64,000 nucleotides of DNA from Chitinophaga oryzae (GTDB taxonomy: Bacteria > Bacteroidota > Bacteroidia > Chitinophagales > Chitinophagaceae): the NCBI RefSeq assembly GCF_012516375.2, contig NZ_CP051204.2, forward strand, positions 5,518,001-5,582,000. The letters run 5' to 3'. The notes beneath the pieces are model-generated. The model was not told the origin of the DNA, made no database searches, and saw only the letters and a program-made list of their open reading frames with translations. Positions 12,521 to 32,244 of this stretch are shown piece after piece. The first letter of the stretch is position 1. Each line of letters begins with the position of its first letter. The translations under genes and the position numbers were made by a program.

Positions 12521-12597
12521 AGTATTGATCTTGAAAAGGCCGTCAGCATATAAGTGTATAAAACACCCTGTATACCCTAAACCGGATTAAAAAAAAT

Positions 12598-13146: not shown

Positions 13147-13343
13147 TCACTATTGAATTTGCACGGAAGATAGGGAGAATATCAGGCAGATTATAGTGGT
13201 ATTTAAGCGATTTATGTATGGATTTTAGCAGACAACAAAATGCAATCGATGGTGGTGCGTGCAGGCGCAAGGGTTTGACCGCTGCGTCATGTATCATATA
13301 TAAAATGATTTACTTATCTTCATCCGTATAAAAACTGTACCTA

Positions 13344-13676: not shown

Positions 13677-13689
13677 GATCTTTTAAGGA

Positions 13690-13711
13690 TGGCCGGGATT
13701 TGAGCCGGCCA
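13690..13711 (+). other. GC-rich hairpin after the YegP-like gene
   Basis: TGGCCGG (13690-13696) pairs with CCGGCCA (13705-13711) over an 8-base loop, 13 bases past the stop codon. No T run follows, so by itself it is not a classical intrinsic terminator. Confidence 0.45.
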
Positions 13712-13732
13712 CTATCTTACCAATGCTGCTAA

Positions 13733-13766
13733 AAAAGCCTTCAAATCATAAGACTTGAAGGCTTTT
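13733..13766. terminator. Bidirectional terminator between yegP-like gene and NRPS
   Basis: A perfect 12-base inverted repeat, AAAAGCCTTCAA (13733-13744) and TTGAAGGCTTTT (13755-13766), has a 10-base loop. It reads into TTTTTT on the minus strand and TTTTCTC on the plus strand. It starts 28 bases past the NRPS stop and serves the converging gene as well. Confidence 0.85.
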
Positions 13767-13794
13767 CTCATTATGCAGGTTTCCGTTAAAAAAG

Positions 13795-15115
13795 TCAGTC
13801 ACGCTCAAGCGATACCGTTCTTTTACGCACAGGCTCAAAGAAGCCTACTTCCACGGCATACTTCATCATCAGGTGTATTTTTTCTTCGTCGGGATGCGCC
13901 CATCTGAATTTCATTTTTCTCAGGACAGCATTGGTAGCTTCATAACATACCTGGTACGGGTGACCTATGTCCTGCCTGTCGTCGCCAAACAGGTCTGCCT
14001 GGAGAAACAACCGGTCTATCAGGTCTTTCTTCGTATCATATGATTGCAACATCCTCTCCAGGTAAGTATACATGCTGGTCAACTCCATATCGTAGCCATA
14101 ACTGTTCAGATAAGCCACGAAATCGGCCGCAGGCAGCAGATGTGGACTACGGACATGGTAATTCCTGTTCAGCAATGCCGGCTTGTCGAAAAGTTGCAGT
14201 ATCGCCGCAGACACCTGGTCGATATTAGACAACTCCAGCTCGCTGAATTCTTCCGGCATCGTCCGGAAGGCAATAAACCCTTTGATCTGGTTGTAGAAAG
14301 CATTATTGTCAATATTCTCCTGGAACTTACCGGTAGCAGAATGGAATGACAGATGTCCTACCCGGTAGATATTGACCATCACCCCTTCCCTTCTCGCTTC
14401 ATCCAGCAGGCGTTCCGCCTCCAGCTTGCTCTTCGCATAGAAGTTGGGCACCTCCTGCCCTTTGAACAAATCCGCTTCCGTGTACAGGTAGCCGGTGCTT
14501 CCCTTTTGGGCCATACCGGCCACGCTGGTGGTGGAGATATGATGGATGACCTTCGTTCTTCCTGTTTTGCAGTAGTCCAGTAACGTCTGTACCGGTCGGG
14601 TGTTTACGGCTTCAAACTCGCTGTAACTACCATAGTGTTTGACATTGGCGGCCGTATTCAGGATACAGTCGGTCTCATACATCAGCGTCTCAAACGCGGC
14701 GGCATCCATGCCCAGCTGCGGCAACGCAATATCTCCTTTATATACCCGCAGCTTTGCCTGGTCCTCAGGCAATGGCTGATCAAAGTAAAAAGCATACTTT
14801 TCCGACAACCGGCTGAAAGCCGCTTCATCACTTTCTGCGCGTACCAGCACACATACCGGTGTATCGTTTCGCTGCAGCAGGTCATGCAACAGGTGAATAC
14901 CCAGGTAACCGGTAGCCCCCAGCAGTAAGATCTGCTGATAGGTGGTAGTCCGGCTGACATCCAGCTGCTGCCACGCTTTCACTTCCTCCAGGTATGGCTG
15001 CCGCTGTTCTTCCAGCAGCTGCTGCATGTGCGCTGCCTGCGCCTGCATCGCTTCCTGGTCTGCCTGTGCCGGATCAAACCGCGACATCAATGCCTCCAGT
15101 TTATTTTTAAAGTGA
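13795..15115 (-). other. Linker and terminal thioester reductase domain
   Basis: A helical, Gln/Glu-rich linker (about 15115-14960) leads to an SDR-type reductase. The nucleotide-binding motif ILLLGATGYLGIHLL lies near 14925-14890, and the STTSVAG / NFYAKSKLEAERLL stretch supplies the Ser and the YxxxK Tyr-Lys pair. Such domains release carrier-bound peptides by NAD(P)H reduction to aldehydes, sometimes on to alcohols. Confidence 0.88.
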
Positions 15116-18100
15116 TTCTTTTCGTAGATCACGTATTTAGAGATACCGGCAATGGTAGGATGCTGGAAGAGGTTATTAATAGAAACCTGGAAATCGACCT
15201 TCATTTTGGCGATCAACCGGATGGCAGTGATAGAGTTCCCGCCTGCTGCAAAGAAATTGTCGTGTATGCCTAACTGAGGCAGGTTCAATACCTCCTTCCA
15301 GATTTCCAGCAGCCGCTCTTCAATCTCGTTCGCAGGACCTGCATCCTGCTGCTGTTCATGGGCCATCAGGGAGGCCGGCGACGGCAGACCTTTCCGGTCA
15401 ATTTTACCATTAGGCGTAAGTGGGAATGATTCCATCGGAACGATCACCGGCGGCACCATAAACTCCGGCAGCTTGCTTTTCAGGTAAGCCACGATAGCTT
15501 CTTTATCGAACTCCTGCCGCGGTACTATATAAGCCACGAGCAGTTTGTTATCATGTTCTCCTCCTTTTACGACCACCACCGCTTGTTTAACATGCTCACA
15601 TTCTGCTGCCACATTTTCTATTTCCCCCAGTTCAATCCGGTATCCGCGTACTTTCACCTGGTCATCGATGCGTCCCAGGTATTCAATATTTCCGTCTGCC
15701 AGCCAGCGGCCCAGGTCACCGGTACGGTACATCCTCGTTTCGCCGTCCCCGGTAAAAGAATTCATGACAAACTTCTCCCGGGTAAGTTCCGGTCGGTTAA
15801 GATAACCACGGGCCAGCCCGGCGCCACTCACACAGATTTCACCTGCCACCCCTACCGGGCACAAGCCACCGTGGGCGTCCAGGATGTACACCTGCATATT
15901 GGCCACCGGCTTCCCGATGACTACCACGCCGTCTTCCCGGATAGGTTCAAGGGAGACGGTGGTACAGATACTGTTTTCCGTAGGGCCGTAAGCGTTAATA
16001 AAGCGTACGCCCCTGGCCTGCAGGAACCTTCCATCCTCCCTGTTTAACGGCTCCCCGCACGACACAACGGTTTTCACCCTGGTTAACATCTCCCTCATGC
16101 TGTGCAGATAAGACGGCGGTAAAAATAAGATCTCCACTTTCCGTTTATTGATCAGCGTCGCAAATCCGGCAGAAGACATCAGGTCCTCCTTCAGCGGCAG
16201 CACCAATAACGCGCCATGAGACAGGGCAATGAATATCTCCATACAGGAGGCGTCGAAGCCGATAGAGGCAAACTGCAACAGGCGGCTGCCGGTGGTGATC
16301 TGCAATGCTTCCTGCTGATCATGCACCAGGTTTACCACGCCGCCATGTTCTATCAGCACCCCTTTGGGCTTACCGGTGGAACCGGAAGTAAAGATCACAT
16401 AAGCCAGGTCATTGGGAGCAGGACTATCAGGCAACGGCGTCACCGGGTAACCGGCAAACAAATCGCTGTCTGTCGCCATCACCCGTTCTATACCCCCTAT
16501 GGCAAACGCCAGTCTGTCGCAGATGCCCGGGCTGCTGACGATAATGCCTGCGGCGATATCCGTGAGGATATATTGTATCCTGTCTGCCGGATATTCGGGA
16601 TCTATGGGAACATAAGCGCCTCCTGCTTTCATGATGCCGTATATACTGATAATCATCTCCGGCGAACGTTCCATGCACAGGGGCACCAGCGTGGCCCGGC
16701 CCACGCCTCTGTCGCGCAGATAGTGTGCGAACTGATTGGAGCGCTCGTCCAGCTCCTTATAGGTCAGTGTAATATCCTTAAACATTAGCGCCACGGCATC
16801 GGGTATGGCTGCCGCCTTCGCGGAGAACAGGCCCGGCAATGACATATCCTGCGGCACGGCTAACGCCTTACCGTTAAAGCCTTCCAGCAACTGCAGTTCT
16901 TCCGCTTCATCCAATAACGATAACGCACAGATGTGGGTAGCAGGCTGACGGGTGATGGACCGCAGCAACTGCTCAAAATGTTTACCCATTCTTTCTACCG
17001 TATCCCGATAGAACAGATCCGTACTATACTGAATGATCAGGGAGAGGCCCTCTTCCGTTTCCTTCAGACAGAAGTTAAGGTCAAATACAGCAGAGATATG
17101 GTCCAGCGGCTCTTCCGACAACTGTACCGTTCCCAGTGTCAGCTCCGGGATATCCGGCGTGTTCTGCAACACCAGCATCACCTGGAACAACGGACTGCGG
17201 CTCATATCGCGCTCCGTTACCACCGCATCCACGATCTTTTCGAAAGGTACCTCCTGGTATTCATAAGCGCTGAGCGTAGTCTGTTTTACCTGCTGCAGCA
17301 GCGAGAGGAAAGCGGGGTTACCAGCGAGGTTGCTGCGCAGTGCCAGGGTATTGATGAAGAAGCCGGCAAGTCCTTCCACCTCCTGGCGCGTACGGCCGGA
17401 GATAGGGCTGCCGACGCAGATGTCATCCTGCCCGCTGTAACGGTACAATAACACCTTGAGGGCCGCCAGCAGCGTCATGAAAAGCGTTACGCCTTCCTGT
17501 TGCGACAAGGCCAGCAACTGGTCCGTCAGTTCCTTGTCGAGATGCAGGTATTCCACGGCGCCGTTTTTACCTTTTACTGCCGGCCTGCTTTTATCTGTCG
17601 GCAGTTGCAGCGTCTGTACGTCCTTCAGGTTTTCCTTCCAGTACAACAGTTGTTGCGCCAGCACTTCATCCGACATGAACCTGCGTTGCCAGATGGCATA
17701 GTCTGCATATTGTATTTCGAGTGCCGGCAATTTCACCTTTTCTCCGGCAGTATAACCATTGTAAAGGGTAATCAGTTCCCGGAACAGCACGCTGACAGAC
17801 CATCCGTCGGAAGCAATATGGTGCATGTTCATCACCAGGATATGCGTAGCGGGATCCAGGGCTATCAGGTGCACCCGTAACATATGATCTTTGGTAAGAT
17901 CAAAAGGCTTTCTTATCAGCGTATGCACGAGGGTACGGTAATCCGCTGCCGCCTGTGGACGATCGCCCAGATCGATGTATTGCAACTGCCATTTCCCTGC
18001 CGGCAATACCTGCTGGCCGGAATGTCCGTCTATCTGTACAATGACAGACCGCAGCACCTCATGGCGGGCCACCAGGTCCCCGAACGCCTGTGCCAGCGCA

Positions 18101-21100
18101 TCTTTATCAGGAGCGCCCTCCATGCGCAATACCACCGGCATATGATATTGTACGCTGCCTTCCATCTGATCAATGAACCATAAACGTTCCTGGCTATACG
18201 ACAGCGGGATCAATTCGGGCCGTTGCTGCGGTGTTACCGCCGGCAGCAGCCATCCTTCGCCGTTCTGCCGGATAAATGCCGCTAACCGTGCGATGGTTGG
18301 ATGCGCAAAGATGGACTTCACCGCTACCTCCGCTTCCATCTGTTTACGCAGGGCAGACTGCAGGCGCATGGCCAGTAACGAATGGCCGCCCAGTTCAAAG
18401 AAATTGTCGTGTATACCGATTTTTTCCACCTGTAATAAACCGCGCCAGATATCTGTCAGTTGTTGTTCCGTCAGATTTCGTGCAGCCACGTACGTAGCGC
18501 CGCCGAGCGCGCTCAGGTCCGCTTCCGGCAACGCGCGTTTATTGATCTTACCGTTATTGGTCAATGGCAGCTCAGGCAACGTGATGAAAAGCGAGGGGAC
18601 CATATAGTCCGGCAGCCTGGACTGCATCCAGGTACGCAGCTCATCTTTCCCGAAGCGCCGTTGCGGCACCACATAGGCCACCAGCCGTTTATTGCCGTAT
18701 TGGTCCTCTTTTACCAGCACCACACATTGCGCCACCAGCTCACATTGTCCGAGTACGCTCTCTACCTCCCCTATTTCCACACGGTTTCCGCGGATCTTCA
18801 CCTGGTCGTCTTTCCGCCCCAGGTAATTGATGTTGCCGTCGGGTAACCAGCAACAGATATCGCCGGTTTTATACAAACGTCCTTTCCCGGTCATATCAAA
18901 CGGATCGGCCATAAAACGTTCTGCTGTTAACTCCGGCAGATGCAGGTATCCTTTTGCTACCTGTACCCCGCCGATAAACAGTTCTCCCGGTACTCCCACC
19001 GGGCAGGGATGACCGTTCGCATCCAGGATGTACAACCGGGTGTTGGCAATGGGTTTGCCAATAGGCGGCAATACCCGTTGTATATAATCTTCAGGCTGTA
19101 CAGTGTAAGCGCTCACCACATGCGCCTCCGTAGGGCCGTACTGGTTATGCAGCCGTGTGTTGCCTTTTTCCAGGAAAAGCCGGAGATCATCGCTCAGTTT
19201 GAGCTGTTCGCCGGCGGTGATCACCTCCTGCAGACACTGCGGATAGATACCACTTTCCTGTGCATATTCCACCAGGTTTTTCAACACCACATAAGGCAGG
19301 AAGAGGCAATTGATTTTTTCTGTGTTGATCTGTTCCATCAGGACAGCCATGTCTTTCCTGCGTTGTTCGTCCACCAGGTGGAGGCTGCCGCCAAAACTGA
19401 GCGTGAAGAATATCTCCTGGAAGCTCACGTCGAAATTGATGCTGGCAAACTGAAGTATCCGTTTAGGCGTCCGGGTATCGATCTGCTGCTGTTGCCAGCA
19501 GAGCAGGTTAAACAGTGCCCTGTCAGGCATTTCCACGCCTTTCGGTTGCCCGGTGGAGCCGGAAGTATAAATGAGGTAAGTGAGTTTTTCCGGAGAAGTA
19601 TACCTGGCGGGGTTTGTCGCCGGGTGCACCGACAGCACGTCTTCTCCCCCATCGGCCGGCAACACCAGGATGCGCTCCGCCGCAATATCCGCCGGCAGGA
19701 GCTTCTGGCTGTGTGCATCTGTAATCATCAGGGAGAAGTGGGTATCGGTGAGGATATAACGGATACGCACCTCCGGATAAGCGGGATCTACCGGCACATA
19801 AGTGGCGCCGGCTTTCAGGATGCCCACAATTGCGGTGATCATCCCCAGCGAGCGCGCCATGCATACGGGTATCAGCGTATTTTCCACCACTCCTTTTTCC
19901 CGGAGATAATGCGCCAGCCGGTTAGCCCGTTCATTGAGCTGACGGTAGGTATAGTGTGCTGTTCCGAAAACAACGGCAACAGCATCCGGTGTTTGCTGCA
20001 CCTGGGCCTCGAACAGGTCTATCACCGCCCTGCCGGCAGGATACATACTCGCCGTATTGTTAAACGTATGCAACAGCTGTTGTTCTTCCGCGGCCGTAAG
20101 CATGGGCAATGCCCCTATCCGCCGGGAGGGCGCTTCCACAATGCCTTGCAGGAGTACCAGGTAGTGCTCCATCATCCTCGCGATGGTAGCCTCCTCATAC
20201 AGGTCACTGCAATATTCCACACGGAAACGCAGCCCGCTGCCAGTTGTAGTAACATCTACTGTCAGGTCGAACTTGGAAGTGCTGTTAGCTACCGGCTGCA
20301 TCGTTACCTGTACGTCATCCAGCTGTAAATCCGGCACTTCCGGCAGGTTCTGCAAGATAAACATCACCTGGAACAGCGGGGTACGGCTCATATCACGGTC
20401 GCTCACCACCGCTTCCACTATTTTTTCGAACGGCGCGTCCTGGTACTGATAGGCCTCCAGCAAAGTAGCCTTTACCTGTTGCAGCAGGGAAAGGAAGTCC
20501 GGATTGCCGGCCAGGTTGCTGCGCAGTGCGATGGTATTGACGAAGAACCCAATCAGCGGTTCGATGGTTTGCTGGGTACGGTTGGCGATAGGACTGCCCA
20601 CGCAGATATCTTCCTGCCCGCTATAGCGATATAACAATACTTTAAAAGCAGCCAGCATCGTCATAAACAGGGTCGTTCCCTGTTGCCTGCACAATTGATG
20701 TATAGCAGCTGTCAGCGTACTGTCCACCTCATAATACAAGGTATTGCCGCGGGTGCTTTGTGTGGCAGGGCGCGGGAAATCGGTGGGCAGCTGTAATGTG
20801 GCCGTATCGTCCAGCTTTTCTTTCCAGTAAGCCAGTTGCTGGTCCAGCACATCCCCCTGCAGATGCTGCCGGTGCCACAACGCATAATCGGCATATTGCA
20901 CAGGCAATGGCTCCAGCCGGTGCGCCTGATGCCGGTGCGCCGCTTCGTACAGCCATATCAGTTCTTTGAGCAATATGGACACCGACCATCCATCAGATGC
21001 TATATGATGCTGTAAGATTACGAGGAAATGTTCCCGGGGCGCCAGCTGTACCAGGCATACCCGCAACATGTAATCCGCTGCCAGGTTAAATGACCGGTTA

Positions 21101-24100
21101 CACCAATGCGTCATTTCTTCCAATATCTTCTCCCGGTCAGCTTCCGTGGTCCTGTCCACCACTTGCAGCTGCCATCCCCCCGCGGGCAGGATATACTGAC
21201 TCACCGCTCCGTCTTCCTCCCGGAAAACAGTACGCAGCGCTTCATGCCTGTCTACAATGGTTGCCAGAGCATTCTCCAGTGCCGGCACATCCAGCTCGCC
21301 ATCCAGTTTCATCACCATCGGCATGTGGTACGCTACGCTGCCCTCCATCCAGTCGATGAACCAAAGCCTCTCCTGCGCAGAAGAGAGCGGCAGCTTTCCT
21401 TCCCGCGGTGATGCGGTAACAGCCGGCAGCACCGTTCCTGGTTGCTGCCGCCGGATATGGTCCGCCAGCGCGGCTACCACCGGATAAGTGAATAAGTCTC
21501 GTATCGGAATCTCTACTTCCAGCTCACGGCGTATGGCAGATACCACACGGGTTACCAGCAGTGAATGTCCGCCCAGTTCAAAGAAGTTATCGTATATGCC
21601 TACCCGCGGAACTTTCAGCAATTGCTGCCAGATGCCTGTCAACGCCAGCTCGGTGGCATTACGCGGAGGCATATACGCAGCTGCGGGCATCATCGCCGGG
21701 TCCGGTTCCGGCAGCGCACGTTTGTTCACTTTACCATTGCCCGTCAGCGGAAGTTTGTCCAATGGCATCAGAACAGCAGGCACCATATAGTCAGGCAACA
21801 GCTGCCGGAGCCAGGATTGAATTTTCTCTTTTTCGAAGGCGCCTGCCGGCACAATATAACCGGCCAGATATTTGGTGCCCTGTTCGTTCGTGCGCGCTAT
21901 CACCACCGCCTGTTCTACCCATTCACATTGCTGCAGCACTCTCTCTGTTTCGCCGGGTTCAATACGATATCCCCTGATCTTCACCTGGTCGTCTGTACGG
22001 CCCAGGCAAAGTACGTTCCCATCGGCCTGCCAGCAGCCCAGGTCGCCGGTCTTATAGAGTTTCTCTATCCTGTTTTTGCTAAACTGGTGAGAGATGAAAC
22101 GCTCCGCTGTCAACTCCGGTAAATTGAGATAACCTGCAGCGAGGCCGTCGCCACCTACGTATATTTCGCCGGTAACGCCGACCGGCACCAGCTGGCGGCG
22201 GCTGTCCAGGATATACACCTTCCGGTTGCCCAGCGGGCGGCCTACGGGCACAGGTATCTTCACCGCGCCTGCTTCTACGGTATAGGTAAGGGAGAAAGTG
22301 GTATTCTCCGTAGGGCCGTAGCCGTTGATAACGGTCAGGGCAGGATAGTGTTGTTTTAACTTACTGATATGTTCTTCCGATAATTTCTCCCCGCCGGACA
22401 GCACCACCGATAGTGTTTCAAAGATACTGATGTCATTATCGATAAGCTGATTGAACCAGCTGGCGGTAAACCACATCATATTTACCCGATGCGCGCGGAT
22501 CTCCCGTTTCAATATCTCGTTGTCCAGCAGCTGTTGCTCCGGGCAAAGAACAAGACGGCCGCCATTGAGCAGCATGCCCCAGTATTCGAAGGTGGCCGCA
22601 TCGAAAGAGGGTGCGCCGGTAGACAACAACCGGTCAGACGCGCTGAAAGAGACATAGTCTACCCCTTTTACAAGGCTCACCACGTTGCGGTGACTTACCA
22701 TCACGCCTTTGGGCCTGCCTGTAGAACCGGAAGTGTAAATAACATAAGCCAGGTCCTGCGGGCAGGGTACCGGCAATGGTATTGCCATCGTCGCTGTTTG
22801 CAGCGTTTCCGCCACCTCGTCCAGGCAGATAAATTCCATAGCAGTCCCTATCCGCTCCAGCGAAGCCTGCTGCATGGTAGTGGTGAGCAGCAGCGTACTG
22901 TTACTTTCGGCCAACATATAGCTGATGCGTTCTGCCGGGTAGTTTGGGTCCACCGGCACGTAAGCGCCGCCCGCCTTTAATACCGCCAGGATAGCGACGA
23001 TCAGCATATCTGAACGTTCCATGCAAACCGGTATACGCATTCCCGGGGTTGCGCCCGCGCCAACGAGGTGTTGCGCCAGCTGTGTGGATGTTGTATCCAA
23101 CGCCCGGTAACTCATTTCCTTGCCGTCAAATACCAGGGCTGTGGCATCCGGCGTCAGGGACGCCTGTGCTGCGAACAGGTCAGTGATGCTTTTATCAGCA
23201 GGATAGGAAGCCTCCGTCTGGTTAAAGCCGTCCAGCAGCAGCGCTTCTTCTTCCGGCATCAACATCGGCAAAAAGCCTGCTTCCATGGCCGGGTTGGCAA
23301 CGATGGCCGCCAACAGCTGTTTAAAGTGCGTGATCATCCGCAGGATGGTATCTTCCTTAAACAGGTCTGTGCAGTATTCCACGCTGCCGGACAATCCTGT
23401 CGCCGTTTCTTCCACTGTGAAATTAAGATCTACCTGCGCGGTGGTATAAGCGATCTTTTCGGGCTGCAGGCTTGCAGCGCCTAAGGTAAGGTCCTCCGTT
23501 TTGGGCAGGTTCTGCAACGTAAAGATGACCTGGAACAGGGGGCTGTAGCTGAGATCACGCTCTTTCACCACCGCCTCCACTACCTTTTCAAACGGCACGT
23601 CCTGGTGCTCATAGGCGTCCAGCGTGGTATTTTTCACCTGTTGCAGCAGGGCGGCAAAGGTGGGGTTATCATGCAGCTGTGTGCGTAAAGCCAGCGTGTT
23701 CACAAAACATCCGATCAGGCTTTCCGTTTCCTGCCGGGTACGGCCGGAAACAGGGCTGCCTACCGTGATGTCTTCCTGGCCGCTGTAGCGGTACAGCAAT
23801 ACTTTGAAGGCTGCCAGCAATGTCATGAACAAGGTAGCGCCCTCCTGCTGCGATAACGCCTGCAGCTGTTGCTGCAGCGTACCGTCGATGTGGAACGGCA
23901 TGATAGCGCCGCGGTTGGAGAATACAGCTGGTCGGGTGTAGTCGAGCGGCAGCTGCAGCGTTGTCACATCTGCCAACTGGCGCTCCCAATAGGCTTGTTG
24001 CTGTTCCAGTACGGCTGCTGACATGTACCTTCGCTGCCAGCGGGCGTAATCGGCATACTGGATATCCAATGACGGCAACACCGGTAATTGCAGGCGTTCA

Positions 24101-27100
24101 AAGGCAGCATACATCTCCATCAACTCTTTCATAAAGATGCTGACAGACCACCCATCGCCGGCGATGTGATGCAGCGTCAGGGCAAGGATATGCTCCTGTT
24201 CCGCCAGCTCAATCAGCTGGCCGCGTAACACATGGTCGGCAGACAAATTGAACGGCGCATCGACCAGGTCTTTTACATAAGCATGCAACGCCGTAACATT
24301 CCCGCGGAGATCGTGCCGGCTGACTGTTTCCAGCTGCCACCCGTCCTTATCCATCACCTGCTGATGCGGCACCTCGTCGATAACGGCAATGATGGTACGC
24401 AATATCGCGTGGCGGTTGACCATCCCGCGGACGGCCGCCTCCAGCGCCTGTTTGTTGACCGTCCCTGTCAGGCGGTAAACCACCGGTATATGATACTGTA
24501 TGCTGCCGGTCAGCCGGTCAATGAACCAAAGCCTTTCCTGGGCGAAGGATAACGGCTGCGGACCGGTATATGTTTCCGCCGTGATCTCCTGCTGCACAGG
24601 ACCTACCAGTTGAAGTATATAGGCAGCCTGGCCTGCAATAGTGGGATGATGGAAGATCGCCTTTACCGGCACCTCTGCCCGCAGCTGCTTCCTGATAGCG
24701 GATTGCAGCCGCATGGCCAGCAGGGAATGCCCTCCCGTTTCGAAGAAATGATCGTGTATACCAATATGATCGCGGCCCAGCAACTGTTGCCAGATATCTG
24801 CCAGCAAGCGCTCCTGCTCATTACGGGGAGCCATATACGCAGCGTCTGACAGCGTGGCGGCATCCGGCGCCGGCAACGCTTTTTTATCTACCTTCCCATT
24901 GGCGGTAAGCGGCAGCGCTTCGAGGGCTACCAGGAAAGACGGCGTCATATAGTCGGGCAGCCTTTCCTTGAGATAAGCCATGACAGCTTCTCTATCGAAG
25001 TTGTTTTCCGGCACCACATACCCGGTCAGGTAGCGGTTATTAAGCTTATCTGTCCAAACGGTCACCACGGCCTGCTTCACAACCGGGCAACCTTCCAGCA
25101 CGCGTTCTGTTTCCCCTGGTTCGATACGGAATCCGCGGATCTTCACCTGTTCATCCACGCGGCCCATGTAAACGATGTTACCATCCGGCATCCAGCGGGC
25201 CAGGTCACCGGTACGGTAGATCCTTGCTTCCGGATCATCCGTGAAAGGGTCCGGGATGAACCGCGCGGCGGTCATTTCCGCATCCAGGTATCCTTTTGCC
25301 ACACCATCGCCTCCTACATACAGCTCTCCGGTTACCCCTACCGGTACCGGTTGTCCGGCATTGTCCAGGATATATGCAGTCCTGTTTTTCAACGGACGGC
25401 CTATCGGCACATTGCCGCTCACCGTTGCCTCATGAATACGGTAATACAGCGAGAAAGTTGTATTCTCCGTAGGGCCGTATATGTTAGTCAGCGCCATGTG
25501 CGGGTAAGCACACCTGAATTTATCAGCATGTTTTTCCGAGATCTTCTCTCCGCCTGTCAACACCTCCTGCAATCCGGCAAATACGGTAATATCCATATCC
25601 ACCAGCTGGTTGAACCAGCTGGTAGTAAAGAACATTTTGGTAACGCGGCGCTGTTCAAGCTCCTGCTTCAGCCATTCGATGTCCAGCAGACTGCGTTCTG
25701 TGCTTAATACCACACAGCCGCCGTTCAACAGGGCGCCCCAGTATTCAAAAGTGGTAGCATCAAAGGAAAGAGAGCCGGCGGAAAGAATAACATCTTCATT
25801 AGTCAGCGTCATATATTCCTGCGACTTCACCAGGCTCACTACGTTCTTATGCGTAACGGCCACGCCTTTAGGCTTGCCGGTAGAACCGGAAGTATACATC
25901 ACGTATGCCACGGCTGCAGGTGCAGGCTGTTCTTCCGGCTTATCAGCCGGATAATCCGGCAGGTCCGGATTATTATCAATATAAAGTATCTCTTTATCAG
26001 CAACAATTTTCAGGGTATCCTTCCATTCCGTGTCAGTGATCACCAGCGGGCTATCGCAGTCGTTTAGCAATTGTAATATCCTTTCGGCCGGGTACTCAGG
26101 ATTGACCGGCACATAGGCGCCCCCGGCTTTCAGTATTCCCAATACCGCCACCATCAGGCCGGCGGAGCGCTTCATGCATAGCGGCACGTAAGCCCCTGCT
26201 TTTAAACCCTTGCTGCGCAATTGATGAGCAAGGCGATTAGCCGCTGCATCCAGCGCCTGGTAGGTAAACGAGGTATTATCGTATACCACAGCGACAGCAT
26301 CCGGCGTTTGTGCCGCCTGTTCTTCAAAAAGTGCTGTGATGCTCTTATCGGCGGGATAAGGAGCCGCCGTCTGGTTGAAATCATACAACAGCTGCGTTCT
26401 CTCCGCTGCGGTGAGCAACGTAATGTCCGCGATCGTATTGACAGACGGCGCAGCCATTTGTAACAATACCTGCTCAAAATGGGCCGCTATCATCCTGACG
26501 TAAGCAGCATCGAGCAACGTTTCATTGTATACAAGGCCTATCTCCAGCCCGTCGGCCATCATCACCCGTATCGTCAGCGGATAATTGGCCTGCTCCTGCA
26601 CCTGGACATGTTGCAGCTGCAATTTCCAGTCAGGAGACTGCAAAGCGGGATTCACCGGGTAGTTTTCAAACACCAGGAGGCTGTCAAACAATTCCTCCCG
26701 GATGCCCGTCCATTGCTGAATGTCATTCAACGCGGCATACTGGTGTTCGCGGCTTTGCAGTTGCGCAGCCTGTAAGTCCTGCAACCAGCCGGCAATGGTT
26801 TGTTCATTGGCCAGCATCGTATACAGCGGCAGGGTATTGATATACAATCCCACTTTTTTATCTGCCCCGGGCAGTTCATCGGGCCTGCCGGCGACGGTGA
26901 CGCCGAACATAGCGGAAGCTTTCGCGGTATAGCGGGACAACAGGTACGCCCACACGCCCTGCACCAGGGTATTGAGCGTAATGCGTTGCTGCTGGGTAAA
27001 CCTTTCCAATTGCTGGCGGACCGCCGCATCCAGGCGCAACGCCGTTTCTTTGAACCGGCCCTCTCCTTTCGTGCGGGAAGCTGTCGTCGTTACAAAGGGC

Positions 27101-30100
27101 AACAAACATCCTTCCGTTACGTCTTTCAGGTAACCGCGCCAGTAATTTTCTTCAGCCGGCAGGTCCCTGTCTGCCAGGAAGCGGACATATGCTCCGAAAT
27201 CATCCATCTTCAGTGATGGCAGGGCATGTTGGGTCACGATGGCCTGGTAGGTTTCTACCAGTTCACCCAATAATACCGGCAATGACCATCCATCCATCAG
27301 GAGGTGATGGTACGTCCATTGCATACGGTAGGTATCGTCCTGCAGGCGGAACAGCGTGATGCGCATCAGGGGCGCCTTTTCAAAGTCCAGCCCCTGCGCG
27401 CGGTCGGCGATCATCCAGGCGTCCAGCGCTTCCTGTTGAGCTGTTGCCGTCATGTGCCGGTAGTCCAGTACCGTAAAAGGCAACTCCACATGATGATATA
27501 CGCATTGCACCGGCACGCTGCAAATTTTTGCATAAAAAGCGCTGCGGAAAATAGTGTGGTGCTGTACCAGATATTCCCAGCTTTTCTGAAAGGCGTCTAC
27601 CTGTAATTGAGGAAGTTCGCAACCAAACTGTTCAACGTAAGACCCTCCTTTTTCCTCATACAGTCCGTGGAACAACATGCCCTCCTGTAGTCCGGTGAGC
27701 CGGTACATTCCGGCCACCCGGCCCCCTGCGGCGCCCAGGAACAGGTCCAGTTCATCATTGGTCATTACGCCGCCCAGTCCATAGTCTGAAGGGGAAGGCA
27801 CCGGCGCCTGCCGGCTGCGGTCTGCGCAGTGCGCGATCAATGTCTCCAGGTGATGACGGTACGCTTCCGCGATGCCTGCTATGGAAGCTGCATGGAAATG
27901 CAGCCGGCTGTAGCTCCATTCTATAACGAGCTCGCCGTCGCGGACCATACTGTTGACTGCCAGCTTTTCGGGAACGGTCCGTTGTGGTGATCCGCCGGCT
28001 TCCAGTGACGACAGCGAAGTTGTAACGGCTCCCTGTGCTGCCGACAGGTTGTCGCCCTGACCGAGGTAGTTGAAGCTTACTTCCCAGGGCACAGCGCCCT
28101 GCAACGCAGCCTGTCTGCCGATGTATTTGCTGACGCCATAGCCGATGCCTTTGTCGGGCACCTGGCGCAACTGTTCTTTGATATCCCGGACCAGGCGGCC
28201 GGCAGATAAGCCCTCGGTCGCTTCCAGCCATACCGGGTACTGGCTGGTGAACCAGCCGATGGTGCGGTTAACGGTAATGCCGGGTGCTATCTCTTCCCTG
28301 CCGTGGCCTTCCAGGCCCACCAACACGCCGGCGCCTTTGTTCCATGCTGTCAGGGTCATGGCCAAAGCAGTGAGCAGCATATCATTAACTTCCGTACGGT
28401 AAGCAGCCGGTACTTCCTGCAGCAGGCGGCGGGTAGCAGTCGCATCGAGACGTACCGTCTCTTTGCATATGTCCGATACCGTTATTTTGCCGGTATACAG
28501 GAGGTCTGTATATAAAGGCGTACGTTTTGCCACTACTGTTTCCCAATACCTTTGCTGCCGCTGATTTTTCTGCGCATAAGCAGCCAGCGCCCCGTGCCAC
28601 TGACGGCAGGAGCTGCCTTTAGCCCCCAATACGGCATCTGCTGTTGCTGCGGGTTGCGCCAGCAGGCGGTTCAAATCTTCCAGCAGGATGCGCCAAGACA
28701 CACCGTCTATAGCCAGGTGATGCACTACAAGCAACAGGCGGTTATGGGCTTCAGCAGCCGGGGTTTGTATAAGGGTAGCCTGCAACAGCACACCCTGGCG
28801 AATATCCAGGCGCGCCTGGCTTTCTGTTATACAAGCGGAAATATGCTGCTGCCATGTTTTCTGTTTCCTGCGCATATCGCTGATATGCAGGACGGGTACG
28901 GCTGTTCCATAGGATTGTTGCCATCCGTTGGCATCCTGCTGGTATACAAAACGGAGCGCGTCATGGTACTGCACCAGCTGACGGAGTGCCGTTTCCAGCG
29001 TTGCCGGCAACAGCTTTTTATCTGTTTCCAGCAGCAACTGCTGGGTAAACAATGCCGGTCCATCGATGCCTTCCTCTTCGAAGTACCAATGCTGAATGGG
29101 CAGCAAACCGCTCTCTCCTGTCAACAGTCCCTGTTCGCCGGCAGCGCTCACCACTTTTACCGCAGACAGCAGCTGTGCCAGTGCCGCTACTGTCTGGTGC
29201 CTGAACAGGTCCTTTGCTTTCAGTTCATATCCCAGTCGCCTTGCGCGGCTTACTACCTGCATGGATACGATGGAGTCGCCTCCCAGTTCTATAAAGTTAT
29301 CGTATATCCCTACCTGTTGCAATCCCAGCAGTTCCTGCCAGATGGCGGCCAGCTGCCGTTCTGTTTCATTACGCGGCGCAACATATTCCTGTAGTTGAAG
29401 ATCGGCTGTTTCCGGGGCCGGCAGCGCTTTTTTGTCCACCTTACCATTGACAGACAACGGCAGCTGCGCCAGTTCCACGAGTATTGACGGCACCATATAT
29501 TCCGGCAGCGTTTCTTTCAGCCGTTGGAGCACCGCAGTTTTATTGTAGCCCGCGCCTGTGGTAACATATCCTACCAGGCGTTTGTTATTGCGTTCGTCCG
29601 CCCATGCCGTCACCACTGCATGTTTCACGCCTTCGCATTCCTGCAGGGCGTGACCTATTTCACCCAATTCTATACGATAGCCGCGGATCTTTACCTGGTC
29701 ATCGATACGGCCCAGGTATTCTATGTTGCCATCCGGCAGCCATCGACCGGTATCACCGGTTTTATACAGCCGGTTGCCCGCCGCGTCAGTAATAAACTTC
29801 TCTGCCGTCATGGCGGGCAGGTGCAGGTAACCATTGGCCAGCTGCGGGCCGCTGACATACAACTCCCCGGTTGCGCCTACCGGCAGCACCCGTTGCTCCG
29901 CGTCCATGATATGGATCTGCATGTTCGCCACCGGCTTTCCGATGGTGATTTGTGTGTCTCCCGGTTGGATCTGCGCCACGGATGACCATACCGTACATTC
30001 CGTAGGCCCGTATTCATTATACAACGCCGCTTTTTTCACTTCTCTGAAGTGACGGCGCGCCAGTGTTACTTCCAGCGCTTCACCCGCCAGGATCACCGTA

Positions 30101-32244
30101 GATAGCGATGCGTTCTGCAACAGCCCCTCTTCGAGGAGAAACCGGTAGTAAGAAGGCACGCACAGCACCATATCCGTACGGGTGAGCAGTTTTTTGACGG
30201 TCTCCGCATCTTTCAGTGTTTCTTCACGGCATACGATCAGGCTGCCGCCGGAACAGAGCGTTCCGAATATCACCGCTACAGAGGAATCGAAGGAGAAAGA
30301 CGGTACCAGCAATGCCGTACCGGTATTGCCGTAACAAGCTATCCTCGCCTGTGTGGACGCTACCAAATTCTCATGAGTGATGCTGACGCCTTTCGGGTTG
30401 CCCGTAGAACCGGACGTATAGATCGCATAGGCAGGATGTTGCGGTTGTAAGGCTGTTTCCACCGGCGTTACAGGGTATTGCCCAATCACCTCCGCCAGCT
30501 GCCGGATATCAATAATTTCCGCGGTGGTGTATTGACCCGGCTGCAGTTTGTCAGCCACATTGCTGAGTACTACCGCCGCCCGTGTATCCTGCAACATGAA
30601 GGCGATACGGTGCTGCGGATAGGCAGGATCTACCGGGACATAGGCGCCGCCCGCTTTCAGCACGGCCAGTATGCCCAGGACCATTTCCGCGGAACGTTCC
30701 ATGCACACGGGGACGAACGTACCTTCCCGCACACCTTTGCTGCGCAGGTAATGCGCCAGCTGGTTGGCCTTCTCATCCAGCTGCCGGTAAGTGAGCATTT
30801 GATCCTCAAACAGCACCGCTTCCGCTGCCGGCTGCATCCGCACCTGCTCCTCTATGAGTGCGTGGATATACGGATAAGGCACAACGCTTATATTGTTATT
30901 ATTAAAGGAAGCCAGTAACGCCTGCTCCTCTTCCGGCAGGATGCTGATTTCCGCCAGTGTGCGTTGCAGTCCGGTTTTAAATTGCTGCATGATATGCAAC
31001 AAGCGCTGCACGAATAATCGTATGTCCGTTTCCGTAAAATACGACGGGTAGTAATCCGCTTTCAGTTGCAGCGGCTGCCCCTGCCCATAGTCGCGCCAGA
31101 GCAGTTCCAGCGGATACCGGGTGATCTCGCTGGTCAGTTCTGTGGTAACAGCCTGTATATTTTCTCCGAAATCGAGGTTTAAGTTGAGGTTGGCGTGGTT
31201 CACCAGTACATCCGTCAGCTGTTCCGTGGTACCGTTAAGTTTCAGGGAACGGCTCAGATCTGCTACCTGGTATTGCTGGTGCTGGTTGTCATTTTTCCTG
31301 GTGGCCGCAATATTTTCCAGCAGTGCAGCGATCGTATCGTTTTGCTGATATAGCGCCTGAAATGGCGTGATACCGGAAAACATACCGGCGATCTGCTGTA
31401 ATGACTTATCTCTTCTGCGATGTACCGGCGTACCGAATACAAAGGCAGGATGTTCGGTAGTACGGGCGAAGTAAATGGTGAGTGCCGCCAGCGTCAGGCG
31501 TAGCAGGTTTGCCTGGGTAGCTTGTTGCAGGTCTTCCAGCGCAGCTTTTTCCGCAGCCGTCAACTCCAGTACGAACGTCCGGCATTGCCGCGGATTCGCG
31601 TCTGTATGCTGGTATCTGCGTTCCAGTAACTGCGCGGGCTTTTTATCGATCATCTTCTTCCAGTAGGCCGCATCTTCTTCGTATGCCGGCGACTGCTGAT
31701 AAGCGAGCGCATCACCGGCAGCGGCCACATAGGAAACCGGCGACCACTCCAACGTTGTCCCCTGTAGTAACGACTGGTATTTACGGGCCACATACTGATA
31801 GGTAGCGGCCAGCCCGTATCCATCATTCACCAGGTGATGATATTTACAGAAATAATAGTGTTCCTCCGGCGATATGGATAGCAGGTATTGCTCGCAGAGC
31901 GCATTTTCCTTCTGCAGGAGAAAAGGTATTTCCAGGCGTTCACGTATCCATTTCTCTACGGCCGCCGGCTGCACACCGGCAAAATCCATACACATGACTT
32001 CCTGCCTGCAAAAGGTATCATCCAGCCAGGCCTGTGGCGCCTGTTCGCTAAGATCGAACCTCATCCGGAATACATCAAATACTGCGGGCAACGTTTCGGC
32101 AGCAGCAATGAATTTCTCTTTGTCAAGGGGCCCCGTGATCCGGGTAACGCCTCCGACATTATAGGTCGAGTTTTCTGCATTGATCAACAAGTCCATCAGG
32201 ATATCCCGCTGAGCAGGATGAAGCGGTGTTACATGGAGTGGCAT
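13795..32244 (-). CDS. Five-module NRPS with reductase release, predicted falcitidin-type peptide aldehyde synthetase
   Basis: A 6149-residue single-chain synthetase: C1 (1-430), A1 (450-940), T1 (950-1025), E1 (1045-1490), C2-A2-T2 (1509-2545), C3-A3-T3 (2550-3600), C4-A4-T4 (3605-4660), C5-A5-T5 (4665-5705) and a terminal thioester reductase (5765-6149). All five C domains keep HHxxxDG, and E1 keeps HHLAIDG and EGHGRE. The pre-epimerase carrier has GGDSI; the others have GGHSL, and the last has GGNSI. Starting with a C domain without an upstream partner suggests N-acylation of residue 1. Pocket reading gives D-His, Ile, Val, Pro, aromatic. The reductase has GATGYLG and YAKSK, so release as an aldehyde (or alcohol) is expected instead of hydrolysis. 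It forms its own transcription unit, with a 744-base gap upstream and a terminator downstream. The product assignment is inference; the gene call is certain. Confidence 0.95.
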   Translation of the reverse strand: MPLHVTPLHPAQRDILMDLLINAENSTYNVGGVTRITGPLDKEKFIAAAETLPAVFDVFRMRFDLSEQAPQAWLDDTFCRQEVMCMDFAGVQPAAVEKWIRERLEIPFLLQKENALCEQYLLSISPEEHYYFCKYHHLVNDGYGLAATYQYVARKYQSLLQGTTLEWSPVSYVAAAGDALAYQQSPAYEEDAAYWKKMIDKKPAQLLERRYQHTDANPRQCRTFVLELTAAEKAALEDLQQATQANLLRLTLAALTIYFARTTEHPAFVFGTPVHRRRDKSLQQIAGMFSGITPFQALYQQNDTIAALLENIAATRKNDNQHQQYQVADLSRSLKLNGTTEQLTDVLVNHANLNLNLDFGENIQAVTTELTSEITRYPLELLWRDYGQGQPLQLKADYYPSYFTETDIRLFVQRLLHIMQQFKTGLQRTLAEISILPEEEQALLASFNNNNISVVPYPYIHALIEEQVRMQPAAEAVLFEDQMLTYRQLDEKANQLAHYLRSKGVREGTFVPVCMERSAEMVLGILAVLKAGGAYVPVDPAYPQHRIAFMLQDTRAAVVLSNVADKLQPGQYTTAEIIDIRQLAEVIGQYPVTPVETALQPQHPAYAIYTSGSTGNPKGVSITHENLVASTQARIACYGNTGTALLVPSFSFDSSVAVIFGTLCSGGSLIVCREETLKDAETVKKLLTRTDMVLCVPSYYRFLLEEGLLQNASLSTVILAGEALEVTLARRHFREVKKAALYNEYGPTECTVWSSVAQIQPGDTQITIGKPVANMQIHIMDAEQRVLPVGATGELYVSGPQLANGYLHLPAMTAEKFITDAAGNRLYKTGDTGRWLPDGNIEYLGRIDDQVKIRGYRIELGEIGHALQECEGVKHAVVTAWADERNNKRLVGYVTTGAGYNKTAVLQRLKETLPEYMVPSILVELAQLPLSVNGKVDKKALPAPETADLQLQEYVAPRNETERQLAAIWQELLGLQQVGIYDNFIELGGDSIVSMQVVSRARRLGYELKAKDLFRHQTVAALAQLLSAVKVVSAAGEQGLLTGESGLLPIQHWYFEEEGIDGPALFTQQLLLETDKKLLPATLETALRQLVQYHDALRFVYQQDANGWQQSYGTAVPVLHISDMRRKQKTWQQHISACITESQARLDIRQGVLLQATLIQTPAAEAHNRLLLVVHHLAIDGVSWRILLEDLNRLLAQPAATADAVLGAKGSSCRQWHGALAAYAQKNQRQQRYWETVVAKRTPLYTDLLYTGKITVSDICKETVRLDATATRRLLQEVPAAYRTEVNDMLLTALAMTLTAWNKGAGVLVGLEGHGREEIAPGITVNRTIGWFTSQYPVWLEATEGLSAGRLVRDIKEQLRQVPDKGIGYGVSKYIGRQAALQGAVPWEVSFNYLGQGDNLSAAQGAVTTSLSSLEAGGSPQRTVPEKLAVNSMVRDGELVIEWSYSRLHFHAASIAGIAEAYRHHLETLIAHCADRSRQAPVPSPSDYGLGGVMTNDELDLFLGAAGGRVAGMYRLTGLQEGMLFHGLYEEKGGSYVEQFGCELPQLQVDAFQKSWEYLVQHHTIFRSAFYAKICSVPVQCVYHHVELPFTVLDYRHMTATAQQEALDAWMIADRAQGLDFEKAPLMRITLFRLQDDTYRMQWTYHHLLMDGWSLPVLLGELVETYQAIVTQHALPSLKMDDFGAYVRFLADRDLPAEENYWRGYLKDVTEGCLLPFVTTTASRTKGEGRFKETALRLDAAVRQQLERFTQQQRITLNTLVQGVWAYLLSRYTAKASAMFGVTVAGRPDELPGADKKVGLYINTLPLYTMLANEQTIAGWLQDLQAAQLQSREHQYAALNDIQQWTGIREELFDSLLVFENYPVNPALQSPDWKLQLQHVQVQEQANYPLTIRVMMADGLEIGLVYNETLLDAAYVRMIAAHFEQVLLQMAAPSVNTIADITLLTAAERTQLLYDFNQTAAPYPADKSITALFEEQAAQTPDAVAVVYDNTSFTYQALDAAANRLAHQLRSKGLKAGAYVPLCMKRSAGLMVAVLGILKAGGAYVPVNPEYPAERILQLLNDCDSPLVITDTEWKDTLKIVADKEILYIDNNPDLPDYPADKPEEQPAPAAVAYVMYTSGSTGKPKGVAVTHKNVVSLVKSQEYMTLTNEDVILSAGSLSFDATTFEYWGALLNGGCVVLSTERSLLDIEWLKQELEQRRVTKMFFTTSWFNQLVDMDITVFAGLQEVLTGGEKISEKHADKFRCAYPHMALTNIYGPTENTTFSLYYRIHEATVSGNVPIGRPLKNRTAYILDNAGQPVPVGVTGELYVGGDGVAKGYLDAEMTAARFIPDPFTDDPEARIYRTGDLARWMPDGNIVYMGRVDEQVKIRGFRIEPGETERVLEGCPVVKQAVVTVWTDKLNNRYLTGYVVPENNFDREAVMAYLKERLPDYMTPSFLVALEALPLTANGKVDKKALPAPDAATLSDAAYMAPRNEQERLLADIWQQLLGRDHIGIHDHFFETGGHSLLAMRLQSAIRKQLRAEVPVKAIFHHPTIAGQAAYILQLVGPVQQEITAETYTGPQPLSFAQERLWFIDRLTGSIQYHIPVVYRLTGTVNKQALEAAVRGMVNRHAILRTIIAVIDEVPHQQVMDKDGWQLETVSRHDLRGNVTALHAYVKDLVDAPFNLSADHVLRGQLIELAEQEHILALTLHHIAGDGWSVSIFMKELMEMYAAFERLQLPVLPSLDIQYADYARWQRRYMSAAVLEQQQAYWERQLADVTTLQLPLDYTRPAVFSNRGAIMPFHIDGTLQQQLQALSQQEGATLFMTLLAAFKVLLYRYSGQEDITVGSPVSGRTRQETESLIGCFVNTLALRTQLHDNPTFAALLQQVKNTTLDAYEHQDVPFEKVVEAVVKERDLSYSPLFQVIFTLQNLPKTEDLTLGAASLQPEKIAYTTAQVDLNFTVEETATGLSGSVEYCTDLFKEDTILRMITHFKQLLAAIVANPAMEAGFLPMLMPEEEALLLDGFNQTEASYPADKSITDLFAAQASLTPDATALVFDGKEMSYRALDTTSTQLAQHLVGAGATPGMRIPVCMERSDMLIVAILAVLKAGGAYVPVDPNYPAERISYMLAESNSTLLLTTTMQQASLERIGTAMEFICLDEVAETLQTATMAIPLPVPCPQDLAYVIYTSGSTGRPKGVMVSHRNVVSLVKGVDYVSFSASDRLLSTGAPSFDAATFEYWGMLLNGGRLVLCPEQQLLDNEILKREIRAHRVNMMWFTASWFNQLIDNDISIFETLSVVLSGGEKLSEEHISKLKQHYPALTVINGYGPTENTTFSLTYTVEAGAVKIPVPVGRPLGNRKVYILDSRRQLVPVGVTGEIYVGGDGLAAGYLNLPELTAERFISHQFSKNRIEKLYKTGDLGCWQADGNVLCLGRTDDQVKIRGYRIEPGETERVLQQCEWVEQAVVIARTNEQGTKYLAGYIVPAGAFEKEKIQSWLRQLLPDYMVPAVLMPLDKLPLTGNGKVNKRALPEPDPAMMPAAAYMPPRNATELALTGIWQQLLKVPRVGIYDNFFELGGHSLLVTRVVSAIRRELEVEIPIRDLFTYPVVAALADHIRRQQPGTVLPAVTASPREGKLPLSSAQERLWFIDWMEGSVAYHMPMVMKLDGELDVPALENALATIVDRHEALRTVFREEDGAVSQYILPAGGWQLQVVDRTTEADREKILEEMTHWCNRSFNLAADYMLRVCLVQLAPREHFLVILQHHIASDGWSVSILLKELIWLYEAAHRHQAHRLEPLPVQYADYALWHRQHLQGDVLDQQLAYWKEKLDDTATLQLPTDFPRPATQSTRGNTLYYEVDSTLTAAIHQLCRQQGTTLFMTMLAAFKVLLYRYSGQEDICVGSPIANRTQQTIEPLIGFFVNTIALRSNLAGNPDFLSLLQQVKATLLEAYQYQDAPFEKIVEAVVSDRDMSRTPLFQVMFILQNLPEVPDLQLDDVQVTMQPVANSTSKFDLTVDVTTTGSGLRFRVEYCSDLYEEATIARMMEHYLVLLQGIVEAPSRRIGALPMLTAAEEQQLLHTFNNTASMYPAGRAVIDLFEAQVQQTPDAVAVVFGTAHYTYRQLNERANRLAHYLREKGVVENTLIPVCMARSLGMITAIVGILKAGATYVPVDPAYPEVRIRYILTDTHFSLMITDAHSQKLLPADIAAERILVLPADGGEDVLSVHPATNPARYTSPEKLTYLIYTSGSTGQPKGVEMPDRALFNLLCWQQQQIDTRTPKRILQFASINFDVSFQEIFFTLSFGGSLHLVDEQRRKDMAVLMEQINTEKINCLFLPYVVLKNLVEYAQESGIYPQCLQEVITAGEQLKLSDDLRLFLEKGNTRLHNQYGPTEAHVVSAYTVQPEDYIQRVLPPIGKPIANTRLYILDANGHPCPVGVPGELFIGGVQVAKGYLHLPELTAERFMADPFDMTGKGRLYKTGDICCWLPDGNINYLGRKDDQVKIRGNRVEIGEVESVLGQCELVAQCVVLVKEDQYGNKRLVAYVVPQRRFGKDELRTWMQSRLPDYMVPSLFITLPELPLTNNGKINKRALPEADLSALGGATYVAARNLTEQQLTDIWRGLLQVEKIGIHDNFFELGGHSLLAMRLQSALRKQMEAEVAVKSIFAHPTIARLAAFIRQNGEGWLLPAVTPQQRPELIPLSYSQERLWFIDQMEGSVQYHMPVVLRMEGAPDKDALAQAFGDLVARHEVLRSVIVQIDGHSGQQVLPAGKWQLQYIDLGDRPQAAADYRTLVHTLIRKPFDLTKDHMLRVHLIALDPATHILVMNMHHIASDGWSVSVLFRELITLYNGYTAGEKVKLPALEIQYADYAIWQRRFMSDEVLAQQLLYWKENLKDVQTLQLPTDKSRPAVKGKNGAVEYLHLDKELTDQLLALSQQEGVTLFMTLLAALKVLLYRYSGQDDICVGSPISGRTRQEVEGLAGFFINTLALRSNLAGNPAFLSLLQQVKQTTLSAYEYQEVPFEKIVDAVVTERDMSRSPLFQVMLVLQNTPDIPELTLGTVQLSEEPLDHISAVFDLNFCLKETEEGLSLIIQYSTDLFYRDTVERMGKHFEQLLRSITRQPATHICALSLLDEAEELQLLEGFNGKALAVPQDMSLPGLFSAKAAAIPDAVALMFKDITLTYKELDERSNQFAHYLRDRGVGRATLVPLCMERSPEMIISIYGIMKAGGAYVPIDPEYPADRIQYILTDIAAGIIVSSPGICDRLAFAIGGIERVMATDSDLFAGYPVTPLPDSPAPNDLAYVIFTSGSTGKPKGVLIEHGGVVNLVHDQQEALQITTGSRLLQFASIGFDASCMEIFIALSHGALLVLPLKEDLMSSAGFATLINKRKVEILFLPPSYLHSMREMLTRVKTVVSCGEPLNREDGRFLQARGVRFINAYGPTENSICTTVSLEPIREDGVVVIGKPVANMQVYILDAHGGLCPVGVAGEICVSGAGLARGYLNRPELTREKFVMNSFTGDGETRMYRTGDLGRWLADGNIEYLGRIDDQVKVRGYRIELGEIENVAAECEHVKQAVVVVKGGEHDNKLLVAYIVPRQEFDKEAIVAYLKSKLPEFMVPPVIVPMESFPLTPNGKIDRKGLPSPASLMAHEQQQDAGPANEIEERLLEIWKEVLNLPQLGIHDNFFAAGGNSITAIRLIAKMKVDFQVSINNLFQHPTIAGISKYVIYEKNHFKNKLEALMSRFDPAQADQEAMQAQAAHMQQLLEEQRQPYLEEVKAWQQLDVSRTTTYQQILLLGATGYLGIHLLHDLLQRNDTPVCVLVRAESDEAAFSRLSEKYAFYFDQPLPEDQAKLRVYKGDIALPQLGMDAAAFETLMYETDCILNTAANVKHYGSYSEFEAVNTRPVQTLLDYCKTGRTKVIHHISTTSVAGMAQKGSTGYLYTEADLFKGQEVPNFYAKSKLEAERLLDEARREGVMVNIYRVGHLSFHSATGKFQENIDNNAFYNQIKGFIAFRTMPEEFSELELSNIDQVSAAILQLFDKPALLNRNYHVRSPHLLPAADFVAYLNSYGYDMELTSMYTYLERMLQSYDTKKDLIDRLFLQADLFGDDRQDIGHPYQVCYEATNAVLRKMKFRWAHPDEEKIHLMMKYAVEVGFFEPVRKRTVSLERD
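15116..18260 (-). other. Reductase NRPS module 5: LCL C, A (aromatic?), T
   Basis: The C domain has HHIASDGWS. The A5 pocket reads D-A-M-F-V-C-A-I-C-K (FDASCME near 16245, ILFLPPSY, VVSCGEPL, NAYGPTENSIC). The A-I-C-K end matches Phe-type pockets such as DAWTIAAICK, so Phe or another large hydrophobic residue is likely; Leu is possible. The carrier motif is GGNSI. Confidence 0.55.
18261..21435 (-). other. Reductase NRPS module 4: LCL C, A (Pro), T
   Basis: The C domain has HHIASDGWS. The A4 pocket reads D-V-Q-F-I-A-Q-V-V-K (FDVSFQE near 19425, CLFLP, VITAGEQL, NQYGPTEAHVV). This fits the Pro group (DVQ.IAHVVK), with Gln in place of His at the seventh position. Confidence 0.75.
21436..24600 (-). 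other. Reductase NRPS module 3: LCL C, A (Val), T
   Basis: The C domain has PLSFAQERLWFID and HHIAGDGWS (L-donor type). The A3 pocket reads D-A-F-W-L-G-G-T-F-K, one residue off the textbook Val code DAFWIGGTFK. Confidence 0.75.
24601..27720 (-). other. Reductase NRPS module 2: DCL C, A (Ile), T
   Basis: The C domain opens with MYRLTGLQEGMLFHGLY and has HHLLMDGWS, the type that takes a D-residue donor, in agreement with the epimerase before it. The A2 pocket reads D-A-F-F-L-G-I-T-F-K, one residue off the textbook Ile code DAFFYGITFK. Val cannot be excluded. Confidence 0.7.
27721..32244 (-). other. Reductase NRPS module 1: starter C, A (His-like), T, E
   Basis: The first C domain has HHLVNDGYG at about residue 136 and differs in wording from the internal C domains, as expected for an acyl-accepting starter domain. 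The A1 pocket reads D-S-A-C-I-A-E-V-W-K (FDSSVAV near 30290, VLCVP, VILAGEAL, NEYGPTECTVW), closest in my memory to histidine signatures. The carrier GGDSIVSMQV and an intact epimerase (HHLAIDGVSW near 28710) make the residue D. Confidence 0.7.

Follow-up and report, generated by a model that had tools for sequence, protein, structure and literature searches.

The window analysed here is a 64,000-base stretch of Chitinophaga oryzae DNA, taken from positions 5518001-5582000 of a genome that consists of a single contig of 8,363,885 bases. It contains a synthetase gene, here called N1, which occupies 13795..32244 on the minus strand as a single open frame with an ATG start and encodes 6149 aa. 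Pfam, NCBIfam and motif scans give the layout Cs-A-T-E-(C-A-T)x4-R, with all domains on the strand of the gene. The motif and Pfam scans place five adenylation (A) domains and six domains of the condensation (C) or epimerisation (E) type, the latter with HHxxxDG motifs at residues 136, 1175, 1646, 2692, 3746 and 4808. A motif scan locates five carrier (T) sites, GGDSI at residue 988, GGHSL at 2504, 3558 and 4619, and GGNSI at 5668, and Pfam assigns the C-terminus to NAD_binding_4. An earlier note on this DNA, made by reading the letters, had claimed the order C-A-T-E, four times C-A-T and a reductase for this gene, and the open frame, the Pfam and NCBIfam matches and the motifs bear that order out.

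The first C domain (C1, 30913..32232; PF00668) looks like a starter domain that would supply an N-acyl cap to the first residue. Its nearest solved relatives are 7c1k and 7c1h, the latter the RzmA starter C domain (E 1.9e-23 and 2.6e-23), followed by EntF, Txo1 and CDA synthetase I. The RzmA domain (7C1H) is the subject of PMC7804268, in the available part of which RzmA-Cs is compared with CdaPS1 and EntF. Two further C domains of N1 served as controls: C2 (26386..27714) finds McyB, bacitracin synthase 3, tyrocidine synthase 2 and surfactin synthetase as its nearest solved relatives, and C4 (20071..21402) finds Txo2 and Txo1 when used as a query without about its first 50 residues. In both control lists 7c1k and 7c1h rank far below other C domains. 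We take the nearest relatives of C2 to be C domains that follow an E domain, and those of C4 to be ordinary C domains. Judged by these relatives, C1 resembles a starter domain, C2 the type that follows epimerisation and C4 the ordinary type; by place and relatives, C2 would take a D-configured donor and C4 would be of the L-L type. The residue that matches Arg148 of RzmA is Leu in six of eight orthologs, Ile in C. niastensis and Met in genome G030. RzmA has the starter C domain nearest to that of N1, and its module number, codes and product class differ.

The second C-type domain (27793..29106) follows the first carrier, T1 (29167..29355; PF00550, LGGDSI), and scores 111.9 bits against the NCBIfam model TIGR01720 (cut-off 74.2), which we take to be a mark of epimerisation domains; it is predicted to make D-His. 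Neither C1 nor C2 matched TIGR01720 when compared with NCBIfam, and C3 to C5 were judged to be of the C type from their position before an A domain. An E domain is present in module 1 only, which agrees with the claim of a single D centre. Module 2 continues with T2 (24616..24807; PF00550), module 3 with C3 (23236..24558; PF00668 and place) and T3 (21454..21642, approximate ends; LGGHSL motif), module 4 with T4 (18265..18462, approximate ends; LGGHSL motif), and module 5 with C5 (16885..18210; PF00668 and place) and T5 (15130..15318; PF00550, GGNSI).

The gene ends in a terminal thioester reductase (13798..15000), by which the product would be released reductively. The thioester reductase model TIGR01746 matches the last 401 residues with 230.6 bits, over a cut-off of 213.35, and this part carries the motifs GATGYLG and YAKSK; the best solved relative is MxaA, and 6vtj and AusA are others. 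With the NAD_binding_4 match, these results agree with the reductive release that had been put forward from the letters. Reductase domains of this kind differ in whether their product is an aldehyde or an alcohol. Reductases are also found in the MxcG, AusA and MxaA lines, those of MxaA and AusA being relatives of the TIGR01746 reductase of N1, and these lines differ from N1 in module number, codes and product class.

Pocket codes were taken from an alignment to GrsA-PheA, which gave DAFFLGITFK for A2 (24892..26328; Pfam), DAFWLGGTFK for A3 (21730..23172, approximate ends), DVQFIAQVVK for A4 (18547..20007, approximate ends) and DAMFVCAICK for A5 (15403..16827, approximate start). We consider the A2 code to be of the Ile type, and the A5 code presumably resembles the Phe code of GrsA. 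In a tree of 49 A domains, A5 groups with two domains of a neighbouring synthetase, one of which has the code DAYTVAAVCK (10-row fork, 100/97). For A1 (29440..30852; PF00501/PF13193) the fourth place was fixed in the stretch VLCVPSYY by aligning the P of VPS as in other A domains, with MHFVPS in domains of code DVWHLSLIDK and the LgrA alignment as anchor models; this gives L, and the code DSALIAEVWK, identical in all nine full-length orthologs when anchored on VPS. Without that anchor the place reads V in the window and V, L or C across the orthologs. Of the codes read by eye in the earlier note, those of A2 to A5 were correct, but that of A1, given as DSACIAEVWK, was one residue off, its C being the next residue.

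The earlier note had made its reading depend on His at the first position, and the corrected code answers this point: the available part of a 2025 survey (PMC12283262) names DSALIAEVWK where it describes four signatures drawn from 14 His-activating domains. The reading of N1 as a falcitidin-type synthetase is therefore strengthened. Val at position 3 and Pro at position 4 are likewise supported by codes in the available part of PMC9113097, where a table assigns DAFWLGGTFK to Val and DVQFVAQVVK to Pro. The A3 code is an exact match to the former; the A4 code differs from the latter in one of ten places, and the A4 codes of C. varians and genome G077 are identical to it. As exact strings, the A1 and A3 codes were each matched in one paper of the literature searched, the two just cited, whereas the A2, A4 and A5 codes, and a further Pro code, gave no match there. 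In module order, the five codes thus read His, Ile, Val, Pro and hydrophobic or aromatic; with the A2 and A5 strings unmatched, the Ile and aromatic calls are made from general code types and the A-domain tree. We infer that A2 loads Ile and A5 an aromatic residue. Between species the A5 code varies, with DAMFVCAICK, DAMFICGICK, DAIFVCAICK, DALLVGAICK and DAAFMCGICK all represented.

A search with the reductase finds matches at E <= 1e-30 in 14 of 79 genomes of the genus, and full-length N1 frames (6145-6184 codons) are present in nine of the 79, the window's own included. In a sample of the family, the window's own genome was the one of 294 with a match at E <= 1e-60. The other eight orthologs belong to C. 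fulva, C. qingshengii, C. eiseniae, C. dinghuensis, C. varians, C. niastensis, G030 and G077; among the seven other than G077, whole-protein identity to N1 is lowest for C. niastensis (63.4%) and highest for C. eiseniae (89.3%). The five-module order is kept in all nine full-length orthologs, and the code types are kept too, with the third A domain of C. niastensis as the sole exception. Because it is kept in all nine, the module order of N1 is not due to chance.

Two observations on other synthetase genes were made alongside. Genome G050 holds a 3139-aa relative (contig L040, bases 8155-17571) whose reductase is 49% identical; it starts with an A domain and has three modules before the reductase, with pocket letters that are Pro-like (last variable letter unaligned), DGYFMGVVFK and Pro-like, and its product is perhaps an uncapped Pro-Xaa-Pro aldehyde. 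The source genome of the window (G000) is rich in NRPS genes: it has 101 PF00668 matches, E domains and fragments included, mostly in large frames at about 4.43-4.81, 5.04-5.07, 5.53-5.59 and 6.31-6.37 Mb.

We compared frames of at least 120 aa in the flanks of seven of the eight other orthologs (without G077), over up to 10 kb a side, the G030 flanks compared being about 5.9 kb and 10.6 kb. The window's neighbours are found at high identity only in C. eiseniae among these seven, which shares a sigma factor, FecR, SusC, SusD and GH31 on one side of N1 and an acylase and a second synthetase, N2, on the other. The C. qingshengii flank has distant relatives of SusC and FecR (25-28%) and a SusD-like one at 26% to that of C. 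eiseniae, the G030 flank has two M57-peptidase relatives (43-48%), and the C. fulva and C. varians flanks have two frames in common that are absent beside N1 of the window. Within these flanks, no gene was found that adjoins N1 in all seven compared orthologs, and the pathway therefore looks like a single-gene one.

N1 is very probably a complete, single-protein synthetase of the falcitidin/pentacitidin type, making an acyl-D-His-Ile-Val-Pro-(aromatic) aldehyde. The acyl-D-His-Ile-Val-Pro-Xaa aldehyde that had been proposed from the letters is thus supported, as a prediction from sequence, by the domain order, the printed His, Val and Pro codes and the E and R domains. In the mechanism we propose, the starter C domain would join a short acyl-CoA to His on T1, and the E domain would invert the acyl-His to its D form. 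Modules 2 to 5 would then extend the chain by Ile, Val, Pro and an aromatic residue, and the terminal reductase would cut the thioester with NADPH to give the acyl-D-His-Ile-Val-Pro-Xaa aldehyde; the acyl group, and an aldehyde rather than an alcohol, are predicted features. With its aldehyde group, such a product would be expected to bind reversibly to an active-site Cys or Ser of a protease and so could act as an inhibitor. Falcitidin itself, a Pro-amide tetrapeptide, may be formed when the pentapeptide aldehyde is broken down: N1 offers no way to release a tetrapeptide amide, and the compared flanks show no conserved neighbour that could make one.

The known compounds come from the same genus. 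Falcitidin is isovaleryl-D-His-Ile-Val-Pro-NH2 and inhibits falcipain-2, a malaria protease, according to the available part of PMC10708299; it was also detected in a metabolome study of 25 Chitinophaga strains (PMC9248904), the available part of which names, among others, C. eiseniae DSM 22224, C. dinghuensis DSM 29821 and C. niastensis DSM 24859. The pentacitidins are, by the title of the paper on them, more potent falcitidin analogues (Brinkmann et al. 2022, ACS Chem Biol 17:576). N1 is like the falcitidin/pentacitidin synthetase of Chitinophaga in its predicted residue order, the D centre at residue 1, the acyl cap and the reductive end, and both C. eiseniae DSM 22224 and C. dinghuensis DSM 29821 have an N1 ortholog. 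The pentacitidin paper is said to describe these compounds as pentapeptide aldehydes, together with a matching gene cluster. N1 is not new in kind: 'falcitidin plus one residue', as the earlier note had put it, is a published class, the pentacitidins.

We considered whether N1 might instead be one part of a larger line. Upstream of it, on the same strand, lie a frame of the penicillin/cephalosporin-acylase type (32989-35058; best solved relative 4e57, E 9.1e-150), then N2, an open frame with two A domains and the thioesterase motif GHSFG (35064-42365), and then N3, an 8706-aa open frame with seven A-domain codes that runs from 42383 to beyond the window end. The acylase frame starts 5 bases after that of N2, and the N3 codes are presumably of Ser-, Thr-, Ile/Val-, aromatic- and Dab-like types. 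The four frames stand in a row, and C. eiseniae keeps the order N2, acylase, N1, as would be expected if N1 continued the N3-N2 line and the acylase between them trimmed the product. This is nevertheless highly improbable. The upstream pair ends with a thioesterase motif of its own and N1 opens with a starter-type C domain; no acylase was found in the flanks of six of the seven other orthologs compared, and no further A-domain frame lies in the compared ortholog flanks. The acylase is present in two of seven genomes searched, C. eiseniae and C. oryziterrae; in the latter (contig L012) it comes directly after a 2427-aa N2-like frame, and no N1 ortholog from this species came up in the ortholog search. 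In other words, N1 does not travel with N3, N2 and the acylase across species, the flank being common in one of seven orthologs and the acylase present in two of seven genomes. On the starter C domain, the thioesterase motif of the other line and synteny, we rejected the idea that N1 closes the upstream line, and we rejected the acylase as a tailoring gene of N1, since it goes with the upstream type of synthetase. N3, N2 and the acylase are a separate, lipopeptide-type cluster, in which the acylase may strip the acyl chain from the finished peptide in the way that PvdQ removes an acyl chain in pyoverdine. Within this cluster, at 35064-42365 and 42383-63979, A1 of N2 and A3 and A5 of N3, closely related and all of the Ile/Val type, form a group of their own in the A-domain tree (100/100), as if copied within the cluster. 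In C. oryziterrae (contigs L012, L044 and L048), a line of the N3/N2 type that is related to this one stands directly before an acylase with 68% identity to that of the window.

If N1 is a complete falcitidin/pentacitidin-type synthetase, its product might still differ from a free pentapeptide aldehyde with the residues given above. The reductase could act twice to give a peptide alcohol, or the aldehyde could cyclise; MxaA, its best solved relative, performs a four-electron reduction, and the reductase of AusA, another relative, feeds a cyclising aldehyde. Such an end is quite unlikely here: the published falcitidin relatives are reportedly pentapeptide aldehydes, and the first residue of the N1 product would be N-acylated and have no free amine, so that ring closure of the AusA type would not be possible. 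It is also conceivable, though unlikely, that the same architecture uses other residues, for example Val or Leu at position 2, Leu or Trp at position 5 or beta-hydroxy-His at position 1, and makes another falcitidin relative. In keeping with this, the A2 and A5 codes are without a match in the literature searched and A5 is variable between species; moreover, according to the available part of PMC12283262, 89 codes accept at least two residues and DSALIAEVWK is also able to accept beta-hydroxylation. Against it, the codes at positions 1, 3 and 4 match printed ones exactly or to within one letter, and their order is that of falcitidin. The acyl-D-His-Ile-Val-Pro-(aromatic) aldehyde is the product that we favour for N1.

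The fresher part of this analysis lies outside the window, in C. niastensis. There the third A domain of the N1 ortholog has the code DSALIAEVWK instead of the Val code, and residues of about 3195-3587 (contig L010) are 89.5% identical over 1178 bases to the gene's own module 1; in the other seven orthologs tested, the best stretch shared by modules 1 and 3 has 64-86% identity over 64-512 bases. In the tree of 49 A domains, the third A domain of C. niastensis pairs with its own A1 (95/68, not starred), and the pair falls within the starred group that unites every A1 domain (100/100), apart from the other seven A3 domains. The C domain before the replaced stretch and the carrier part after it match module 3 of the window and of G030. 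The upstream edge of the swap is just before motif A3 (YTSGSTG), and the downstream edge is in or just after IGIYDNFFELGGHSL of the carrier domain, which retains LGGHSL where T1 has LGGDSI. An assembly artefact is an unlikely explanation: across 1178 bases the copies show a difference of 10.5%, and the gene reads through as a single open frame of 6184 codons, or 6173 aa when counted from the first ATG.

Natural exchanges of a related kind have been described. In microcystin synthetase, an A domain was replaced between mcyB1 and mcyC without the C domain (PMC2174460, available part), and in C. niastensis, likewise, an A domain was overwritten from another module of the same pathway and the C domain was spared. 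According to the available part of a survey of natural swaps (PMC8097286), such exchanges very obviously tend to leave the native Asub-T interface intact, although its data include an exception in which Asub and part of the T domain moved together; the swap in C. niastensis belongs to the type of this exception and lies within one gene. We suggest that the falcitidin family probably diversifies by self-copying of this rare Asub plus part-T type. In C. niastensis, a copy from module 1 (His), reaching from motif A3 of the A core through all of the A subdomain into the beginning of the carrier, would have overwritten the corresponding part of module 3 (Val), with the module-3 C domain and the remaining carrier kept and the edge in or just after FFELGGHS, and the enzyme would make acyl-D-His-Ile-His-Pro-Xaa aldehydes. 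A literature search on C. niastensis peptides gave nothing to the point among the best 8 of 1,146 matches.

These results have implications for the gene in the window and for the family. N1 is an intact, single-gene candidate source of falcitidin-type peptide aldehydes, and would link the known peptides of this type to a single gene that nine genomes of the genus retain. The C. niastensis ortholog, from a species with a strain already cultured for metabolomics (PMC9248904, available part), would be a natural experiment for NRPS engineering, one that predicts the product of a swap with its edge in the carrier domain.
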